Shown here one piece after another: positions 161 through 6,710 of a DNA stretch of 42,310 bases. The stretch is from Prochlorococcus sp. AG-418-I20. Its GTDB lineage: Bacteria; Cyanobacteriota; Cyanobacteriia; PCC-6307; Cyanobiaceae. A program made the position numbers and the translations under genes. A model generated the notes under the pieces. That model ran no database searches. It saw only the letters and a list, made by a program, of their open reading frames with translations, and was not told the origin of the DNA. Location of the stretch: positions 1-42,310 of the forward strand of contig QCLZ01000010.1 in assembly GCA_003214175.1 (NCBI GenBank), read 5' to 3'. Position 1 is the first letter of the stretch; the number at the start of each line of letters is the position of its first letter.

Positions 161-168
161 CCTCACAC
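161..168 (-). promoter_or_regulatory. Porin RBS overlapping a Yfr1-complementary site
   Basis: On the mRNA strand the eight bases GUGUGAGG lie just upstream of the porin ATG and contain its Shine-Dalgarno (GAGG). They are fully complementary to CCUCACAC, the core of the conserved unpaired ACUCCUCACAC segment of the cyanobacterial sRNA Yfr1. Yfr1 is known to repress porin mRNAs in Prochlorococcus MED4 by pairing at this kind of site. The complementarity is seen directly; regulation in this strain is inferred. Confidence 0.65.
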
Positions 169-169
169 T

Positions 170-191
170 AAAAAAACCCAATAAAAGGGTA
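170..191 (-). terminator. Short hairpin plus T-run after glyQ / in porin leader
   Basis: On the minus strand ACCC and GGGT pair around a 7-nt AT loop and are followed by seven T residues. It could end the glyQ transcript, or lie in the porin leader if that gene uses the -10 at 227-232. The stem is only 4 bp, so strength is doubtful. Confidence 0.4.
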
Positions 192-226
192 TCTTCACTG
201 TATCGAAAGTAACAAAAAAATAAAGA

Positions 227-232: not shown

Positions 233-267
233 AGTTTCACTTCCATGTAACTTTTTATACTTTCTGA

Positions 268-1164
268 TTATTTTGAATAATAATTATCTCTATATATTTT
301 TATTAAAGGATAGTCCAGGCATTCTCTTTCTTCTAACCATGAGGATGCCACTTCTCTTGCTAACTTTCTGATTTTTTCTATGTATTGGGCACGATCAGTT
401 ACAGATATTACACCTCTAGCATCAAGCAAATTAAAGGTGTGACTACACTTTAAAACATAATCAAGTGAAGGGTAAGTTAGCTTCTTTTCAATTAATAAAT
501 TTGCCTCTTCTTGATATATTTCAAATAATTTCCTGAGATTGTCAGGATTAGATTCAGTAAAATTATAGGAGCATTGACCTTTTTCAAATTGGAGCCAAAT
601 ATCACTATATTTCAGATTATTGTTCCAGTTTAAATCCCAAATACTTTCCTTATCTTGCAAAAACATTGCAATTCTCTCTAAACCATATGTAATTTCTATT
701 GGGATTGGTTGACAATCAACTCCCCCGCATTGTTGAAAATAAGTGAATTGAGTAACTTCCATTCCGTCTAGCCATACTTCCCAACCTACGCCCCAAGCGC
801 CAAGAGTTGGTGACTCCCAATTATCTTCGACAAATCTTATGTCATGATTTTTAGGCTCTATTCCAAGAGATTCCAAAGATTTTAAATATTTTTCTTGAAT
901 CCCCTCTGGGGAAGGCTTAATTATTACTTGATATTGAAAATAATGTTGTGCACGATTTGGATTATCCCCAAACCTTCCGTCTGTAGGTCTCCTACATGGC
1001 TCAGCATATGCAACAGACCAAGGTTCCGGTCCAATGGCCCTCAAAAAAGTATGAGGATTCATTGTTCCAGCACCCTTTTCTGTATCGTAAGGCTGCATAA
1101 TTAAACAACCTTCTTTGGACCAAAAATTATTTAGGTTTTGAATTATATCCTGAAAAAACATCAA
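268..1164 (-). CDS. glyQ: Glycyl-tRNA synthetase alpha subunit
   Basis: This is the catalytic alpha chain of the bacterial alpha2beta2 glycyl-tRNA synthetase, which charges tRNA-Gly with glycine in the cytoplasm. The 298-aa length and the start ([20 protein letters not shown]) are typical. The family blocks [19 protein letters not shown] and [14 protein letters not shown]-like (here [14 protein letters not shown]) are present, as is the [20 protein letters not shown] block. The beta subunit gene glyS is not in the window. The gene has its own 150-bp upstream gap. The double Met start (MM) leaves one codon of ambiguity. Confidence 0.97.
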
Positions 1165-5948: not shown

Positions 5949-6710
5949 TTGAAGAAATTTCAAAATATTTTAAAAATCGTGACTGACAAACTTCAAATTG
6001 ATATAAATAATCTTTTAAAAGAATTTAACTTTGAGGAAATAAAACAATTTAAATTAGTTGTTTTATTTGGTTTATTAGGAGATTTTGATAGCTTTGAATA
6101 TGCAATAAATTTAAAAAATTTTATCGATAATCAACAAAATAAAAATTTAGATATTTTTGCCGTCGCTATTGGCAATCAAAAAGGAAAAGAAAAATTCTGC
6201 AACTTTACTGGTTTTGATGAAGAAAATTTAATAGTTGTTCCTAATAACCAAATTCATAATCATCTTAAAATCTCAAAAGGTTTAGATGTAGGATTGGGAG
6301 GTTGGATCAATATGCTTTTGATGCTAACTGGAGTAAATTCTCTTAAAACAATCAAAGAGGTAATTAGAGGTTATACGGGTGATCGCAAAGCAAATCAAAT
6401 CTATTCAGGATTTGACAAAATCGACGTTTTGAAATTTCTAAATTTTTCAGGTAATTCTTTCAAGCAGGTTTTTGGAGATGGTTATTTGAGACCATTTGAA
6501 TTGGCAACTTTTAGATTAAACAACATGAATGAAATAATCCAAAATTGGGAGGATTATATTCTTAATGAAAAATATCTTCCCCAAAGGGGCGCGTCTTTTT
6601 TATTAAATGGTAAAAATCAACTGATTTATAGTTTTTTTTCACGTGATGTTCTTGGATATTCATCAAATATGAGAGATCCATTAGGATTTTTATCTCATTT
6701 AATTAAATAA
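5949..6710 (+). CDS. AhpC/TSA (peroxiredoxin-like) family protein without the catalytic cysteine
   Basis: A 253-aa protein whose first half resembles a thioredoxin fold. The strand KLVVLFGLLGDFDSFEYA sits where peroxiredoxin-like proteins have the strand and active-site loop, and LDIFAVAIGNQKGKEKFCNFTG matches the next strand and helix. The C-terminal half has a LRPFELATFRL stretch and a hydrophobic DVLGYSSNMRDPLGFLSHLI end. No CxxC or peroxidatic Cys is present at the expected position; the only Cys is in EKFCNF. It may be a structural or sensor relative, not a peroxidase. Divergence from isiB suggests shared control. The start is TTG. The family call is moderately sure and function is unknown. 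Confidence 0.6.
   Translation: MKKFQNILKIVTDKLQIDINNLLKEFNFEEIKQFKLVVLFGLLGDFDSFEYAINLKNFIDNQQNKNLDIFAVAIGNQKGKEKFCNFTGFDEENLIVVPNNQIHNHLKISKGLDVGLGGWINMLLMLTGVNSLKTIKEVIRGYTGDRKANQIYSGFDKIDVLKFLNFSGNSFKQVFGDGYLRPFELATFRLNNMNEIIQNWEDYILNEKYLPQRGASFLLNGKNQLIYSFFSRDVLGYSSNMRDPLGFLSHLIK

Follow-up and report, generated by a model that had tools for sequence, protein, structure and literature searches.

Does the leader of the porin gene that follows glyQ in Prochlorococcus sp. AG-418-I20 carry a target site for the small RNA (sRNA) Yfr1, or only a ribosome binding site (RBS)? The stretch of DNA that we analyzed (the window; contig C10, positions 1-42310, of a 1.50 Mb genome in 24 contigs) holds the start of this glyQ-linked porin, and on the minus strand its leader runs into the gene as ...ACCCTTTTATTGGGTTTTTTTA GTGTGAGG TAAA ATG AAA CTC TTC.... 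An initial annotation had noted that GTGTGAGG at 161-168 is an uninterrupted 8-nucleotide (nt) complement of CCUCACAC in Yfr1 and includes the RBS; this is exact, and only the wording that the site lies immediately before the ATG was slightly loose, as there is a spacer of 4 nt. We conclude that this 8-mer is very probably a Yfr1 target site, at which porin translation is repressed by covering of the Shine-Dalgarno (SD) sequence. Seen directly are both partners in one genome, the position of the site, a motif predicted to be unpaired, the strong conservation of the site and the decay of its exact form in one of the two genera that lack Yfr1; repression of the window porin in the cell would follow by analogy with experiments on two paralogues in strain MED4. 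The mechanism is a known one and the target is new, a porin paralogue outside the MED4 work.

The sRNA partner, which was sought in the whole genome as the initial annotation had proposed, is present: the Yfr1 family (RF01116) has a single match, at C3:96523-96576 (58.3 bits; gathering cut-off 38), and its flanking genes, which we take from reading of the sequence to be guaB and trxA, presumably put it in the same place as in published accounts. The predicted fold of this Yfr1 has two hairpins, with the motif unpaired between them. When it was cofolded with nt 1-54 of the predicted porin mRNA, the only pairs between the two RNAs were the 8 of CCUCACAC with GUGUGAGG, both Yfr1 hairpins and the leader hairpin stayed intact, and the energy was -39.9 kcal/mol, compared to -20.9 and -6.6 for the two RNAs apart. 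The complement takes up 8 of the 11 nt of the ultraconserved Yfr1 segment ACUCCUCACAC, contiguously, and overlaps the ribosome-binding region of the porin mRNA. Duplex energies with this Yfr1 were -15.7 for the window porin and on average -16.2 for 125 porin leaders; for the 42 other open reading frame (ORF) starts in the window the mean was -5.2.

We considered the alternative that the 8-mer is a strong SD inherited by porins and kept for high translation, with the complementarity to Yfr1 as a by-product, since GAGG stands at a normal SD distance; we regard this as improbable. The genome has 12 copies of GTGTGAGG (3 of the reversed pattern), which argues against a generally used SD, and three of these copies are the RBSs of all three porins found by N-terminus search (3/3; starts at C3:29891, C3:31166 and C10:156). 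With some 1700 starts (the gene number is assumed), about 0.04 copies would be expected at -12 to -17 of starts; three were seen, all at porins, two of them on near-identical tandem copies and therefore not independent. Other copies lie antisense of yfr1 (one), in the sRNA Yfr10 (one) and in a further hairpin at locus L089 (one), and for the six remaining, which belong to no porin site or sRNA locus, the analysis covered short flanking contexts.

The site is shared by porins well beyond this genome, as well as by the three paralogues found within it, which bears out the comparison of leaders that had been suggested. With a start pattern for this signal peptide, 44 matches came from 21 of 24 same-genus genomes and 55 from 35 of 50 other family genomes, and the leader sample comprised 95 leaders from relatives plus the genome's own three, 98 in all from 55 genomes. 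The exact 8-mer is present in 93 of these 98 leaders, which we label Prochlorococcus-type on the basis of genome size and sequence (91 of 96 distinct; the exceptions are L144 and L146 of genus g11, L148, L151 and L153), and is followed across the sample by 31 different spacer sequences up to the ATG. Its first three letters are conserved in 94 (G), 95 (T) and 98 (G) leaders, the counts of the other five being forced because TGAGG served as the alignment anchor, and a T at -3 upstream is also well kept (87/98). The near fixation of GTG across such differing spacers speaks against a plain SD, as these letters would lie outside the usual anti-SD match of the 16S tail. The start pattern is strict and gave no match in 3 same-genus genomes, all of which have the site before the glyQ-linked porin (L191, L193, L194). 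Among contigs of named Prochlorococcus and relatives, the site follows glyQ in 24 of the 31 that were read (L006-L036; 80 in the scan), with misses in L006, L030 and five Cyanobium/Synechococcus contigs (L031, L033-L036). For starts that we label, on the same basis, Synechococcus-type, the exact site was found at 46 of 56 pattern porin starts from 40 genomes, with at least one site-plus-start match in 39/40 genomes and none in a reversed control. By sequence, the link between Yfr1 and porins is extended from two tested MED4 genes to these 93 leaders and 46 starts, and the conserved porin sites offer one reason for the fixed Yfr1 motif. The compensatory changes that the initial annotation had named as support did not appear; both the site and the Yfr1 motif are near-invariant.

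Genomes without Yfr1 bear on both interpretations. A survey of 300 family genomes, with filters that lose weak matches, detected Yfr1 in 248, and genera g11 and g39 had no Yfr1 in near-complete genomes. Loss of Yfr1 is likewise printed for SS120 and MIT9211 (PMC2190773). The exact 8-mer is present in 84/87 leaders from genomes in which Yfr1 was found, compared to 5/10 in g11 and g39 (Fisher P = 0.0002; for g11 alone, 6e-6; relatedness not corrected), the ten being five from the 98-leader sample and five glyQ-linked ones. In g11, the exact 8-mer persists in only 1/6 leaders and the first G is gone in 5/6, while GAGG stays; three glyQ-linked g11 leaders read TTGTGAGG, without the first G and with the ribosome site kept. 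Thus, g11 is a natural test, a genus without Yfr1 in which the exact match is lost and the ribosome site retained, which favors Yfr1 as the cause of site conservation and argues against a plain SD.

Several observations weigh against a Yfr1 target site, or at least against Yfr1 as its only reader. Some conservation would be expected in any case, because the ribosome site lies within the 8-mer. In genus g39, also without Yfr1, 4/4 leaders keep the 8-mer, which speaks against an exclusive Yfr1 role and fits the inherited SD, and 4/5 altered g11 leaders still carry UGUGAGG (7 nt), seven of the eight letters. The site is also kept in 6/6 leaders from genomes that are 53-81% complete and lack a Yfr1 match, and is not exact at 10 of the 56 Synechococcus-type starts. 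At 2 of the 42 other ORF starts in the window, interrupted pairing still reaches duplex energies of -16.1 and -15.2, the latter at an ATG inside the ORF at 5949-6710. The predicted accessibility of the window site is only 0.30 (class mean, 0.45), and in 20/39 leaders of the glyQ-linked type the leader folds on itself so that at least half of the site is paired. Such pairing, as modeled, could itself add intrinsic damping of translation. Furthermore, in the five g11 and g39 genomes no Yfr10 scored above the cut-off.

The last point concerns a third possibility, that Yfr10, or some other RNA sharing the motif, is the partner that acts in the cell, and not (or not only) Yfr1, which we consider unlikely but deserving of weight. 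The genome does have Yfr10 (RF02362, 61.3 bits; L091), beside Cyano-1, as well as the L089 hairpin with UCUCCUCACAC at its loop, and in MED4 Yfr10 and Yfr1 have targets in common (PMC6778093); the same paper says that Yfr10 persists in SS120. In contrast, Yfr10 was above the cut-off in only 4/15 genomes, or 7/15 at E 0.1. Our match in MED4 at 346661-346738 has the coordinates printed for it there (PMC2518516). The L089 hairpin (about 190-235 of that locus; C2:59489-59534) has a T-rich end and a z of -3.5, had no match in Rfam, and lies outside ORFs of at least 40 amino acids. Of 60 other genomes of the genus, 9, among them MED4, conserve about 110 nt of this region at 93-100%, and a further 7 conserve about 40 nt at 81-82%; it is a candidate for an unlisted RNA bearing the Yfr1 motif.

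Returning to Yfr1 as the regulator, we propose that this sRNA, transcribed elsewhere in the genome, would pair through its unpaired motif with the porin leader, which would cover the SD and block ribosome binding; porin synthesis would thereby be held down post-transcriptionally, and Yfr2-type RNAs, by binding Yfr1, would relieve the repression. Porins control entry into a photosynthetic cell that is among the commonest in the ocean. Richter 2010 is reportedly the paper on the two MED4 porins. The statement of the initial annotation that porin mRNAs are Yfr1 targets in MED4 holds for PMM1119 and PMM1121: a PMM1121 leader reporter in Escherichia coli was 4.7-fold lower with Yfr1 (3.8-fold with a control RNA) and was restored by Yfr2, and SD sequences in MED4 are described as no commoner than chance (PMC6778093). 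The start pattern finds two porins in MED4, at 1066188 and 1069407, with GTGTGAGG at -14 in both (L128, L129), which we took for these two genes; Yfr21 is given at 1069553-1069757, next to PMM1121 (PMC2518516). They resemble the window system in the sRNA motif, in GTGTGAGG, in its position over the RBS and in the first residues, MKLF.... However, the ORF downstream of glyQ in MED4 (L195) is not this porin, and thus the MED4 results do not cover the window gene, which is, as far as sequence tells, one more paralogue, at a locus absent from MED4. PMM0709 was set aside as a MED4 counterpart, being the P-stress porin (PMC5451487), and after glyQ MED4 has the other ORF. In the porin's place, L006 and L195 (the latter from MED4) have an ORF that reads like a secreted iron-binding protein. 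Among the papers listed in the literature searches, none dealt with the glyQ-linked porin as a Yfr1 target.

There are likenesses to systems further away. MicF and OmpF of E. coli are an RNA and a porin not known to be related to Yfr1 and the window porin. MicF similarly inhibits translation of a porin mRNA (PMC6202907). In Nostoc PCC 7120, Yfr1 also acts on 5' untranslated regions, those of outer-membrane and peptidoglycan genes, and its predicted targets include alr0834, a homologue of the two Prochlorococcus targets (PMC6974561), but the target set is much wider. Further background is given in PMC3142192, PMC3898218 and PMC5069720.

The name porin follows from the similarity of the first 32-33 residues (MKLFQQMLVAGASLSLIAPLAAQASD...; ATG at 156-154) to the two C3 proteins and from the annotation of MED4 relatives in papers. 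The C3 porins scored 13.8 and 13.9 bits for Pfam OprB, below the cut-off of 22.9, and an orthologue of the glyQ-linked porin (L008) had no Pfam family at E 0.1. Such orthologues (L007-L024) are 414-496 amino acids long, and the window glyQ is 93% identical to that of named Prochlorococcus contigs. On the minus strand the leader is ordered ACCC-TTTTATT-GGGT-TTTTTTTA-GTGTGAGG-TAAA-ATG.

Table 1. Features at the glyQ-porin junction (window coordinates)
Feature	Position	Strand	Remarks
Porin (glyQ-linked), first 52 codons	1..156	minus	Frame leaves contig C10 at its start
Yfr1-complementary site GUGUGAGG	161..168	minus	Includes Shine-Dalgarno GAGG; 4 nt spacer to ATG
Hairpin ACCC-UUUUAUU-GGGU	176..190	minus	Predicted 5'-terminal mRNA hairpin; weak in window, covarying in orthologues
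Predicted transcription start	190	minus	Inferred from fixed -10 spacing
-10 element TACAGT	197..202	minus	6 nt upstream of 5' arm
GTAN8TAC palindrome GTATAAAAAGTTAC	247..260	minus	NtcA-type box; -70..-57 from predicted start
glyQ, glycyl-tRNA synthetase alpha subunit	268..1161	minus	PF02091, 3.2e-144; upstream neighbor of porin

The initial annotation had also placed a possible terminator-like hairpin at 170-191 and suggested that transcriptional and translational control could be layered on this leader. A hairpin is indeed found, at 190-176 (ACCC/GGGU), followed by seven T and standing between glyQ and the porin, as an attenuator or glyQ terminator whose termination is altered by adjacent Yfr1 pairing might be. 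In the window it is weak: the stem has 4 bp, shuffled sequences fold as well as the 55-nt leader does (z +0.65), and a shorter stretch of the leader prefers another fold. Leaders of the glyQ-linked type were picked by their start sequence and by a site at -12 (synteny with glyQ was confirmed on the contigs read at that locus rather than for each genome). In 41/41 of these, 39 of them distinct, a -10-like hexamer stands exactly 6 nt before the 5' arm (TACAGT in 26, TACAAT in 10 and three others once each; TACCAT and TAGAGT, one leader each, were added to the spacing pattern after the leaders were seen). The same arrangement of -10, 6 nt and hairpin holds in 5/5 glyQ-linked leaders of g11 and g39 read later, with the last ACCC or GCCC taken as the 5' arm, and 3 of these lack the exact Yfr1 site. 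We infer that the 5' arm's first base is the transcription start, and that the stem is probably the 5'-terminal hairpin of the mRNA; a short hairpin would thus open the leader, no more than 2 nt from the predicted start. The simplest reading is that upkeep of the hairpin does not depend on Yfr1.

Among the 39 distinct leaders, stem pairing begins at +1 in 18, by +2 in 32 and by +3 in 39. The hairpin appears in the minimum-energy fold to the start codon in 34/39, the exceptions being L096, L101, L135, L194 and the window itself. When arms were swapped between leaders they paired worse (11.9, compared to 13.2 for native arms; 0/20000 permutations reached the native mean, relatedness not corrected), and C-G, A-U and U-A pairs were all seen at +5 and at +6. 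Similar hairpins precede porins presumably not next to glyQ in other genera: over 26 such leaders, which passed a stem filter applied to about 41, the -10 score is on average highest at 6 nt, at 5.0 (background 2.91; standard deviation of column means 0.37). In leaders of the PMM1119/1121 type, and in those with GTGTGAGGACACA, a hairpin is not evident (mean z -0.53 and -0.28, compared to -1.79 and -1.4), a further difference between the window gene and the MED4 targets.

These results leave layered control very improbable. By the fixed -10 spacing the stem would stand at +1, where an ordinary terminator would come too soon, and 23/39 distinct leaders have no T-run longer than 4 in the 9 nt preceding the site; orthologues do not keep a GC-rich stem with an unbroken U-run at a workable distance from the start. 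The attenuator or terminator reading was rejected on the spacing and the U-run. A terminator scan also did not list the window hairpin, which is no strong evidence because the scan requires 5 pairs and this stem has 4. The hairpin, recast as a 5' end element, probably protects the mRNA end rather than attenuating. The som mRNA PMM1121 is among the longest-lived in MED4, with a caution on array saturation (PMC2897979). Among the matches listed, no paper title concerned a porin 5' hairpin in Prochlorococcus, which is not proof of absence.

The promoter bears a GTAN8TAC box at one fixed position in 37/39 distinct promoters of this type, which fits the NtcA-type consensus; nitrogen control of the glyQ-linked porin is possible. 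Tentatively, and with the odds against it, we suggest a composite module, in which the NtcA-type box would tie transcription to nitrogen state, the covarying 5' hairpin would protect the mRNA end and the SD would serve as the Yfr1 switch, yielding a stable, translationally silent pool of porin mRNA that Yfr2, itself raised by nitrogen or light stress, could release. The hairpin persists with its -10 spacing even in leaders that have lost the exact site in genomes without Yfr1; on this view it would form a conserved element of its own that does not depend on sequence.

Two smaller observations concern these leaders. At 200-213 on the minus strand, GTTACTTTCGATAC forms a G(T/A)TAC-N4-GATAC repeat that overlaps the -10 element and is found in 26/39 promoters of the type; it resembles an RpaB/HLR1 box. 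GTGTGAGGACACA precedes the ATG in leaders L025-L029 and L176-L189, in which pairing of GUGU with ACAC could place the SD GAGG in the loop of a small hairpin.
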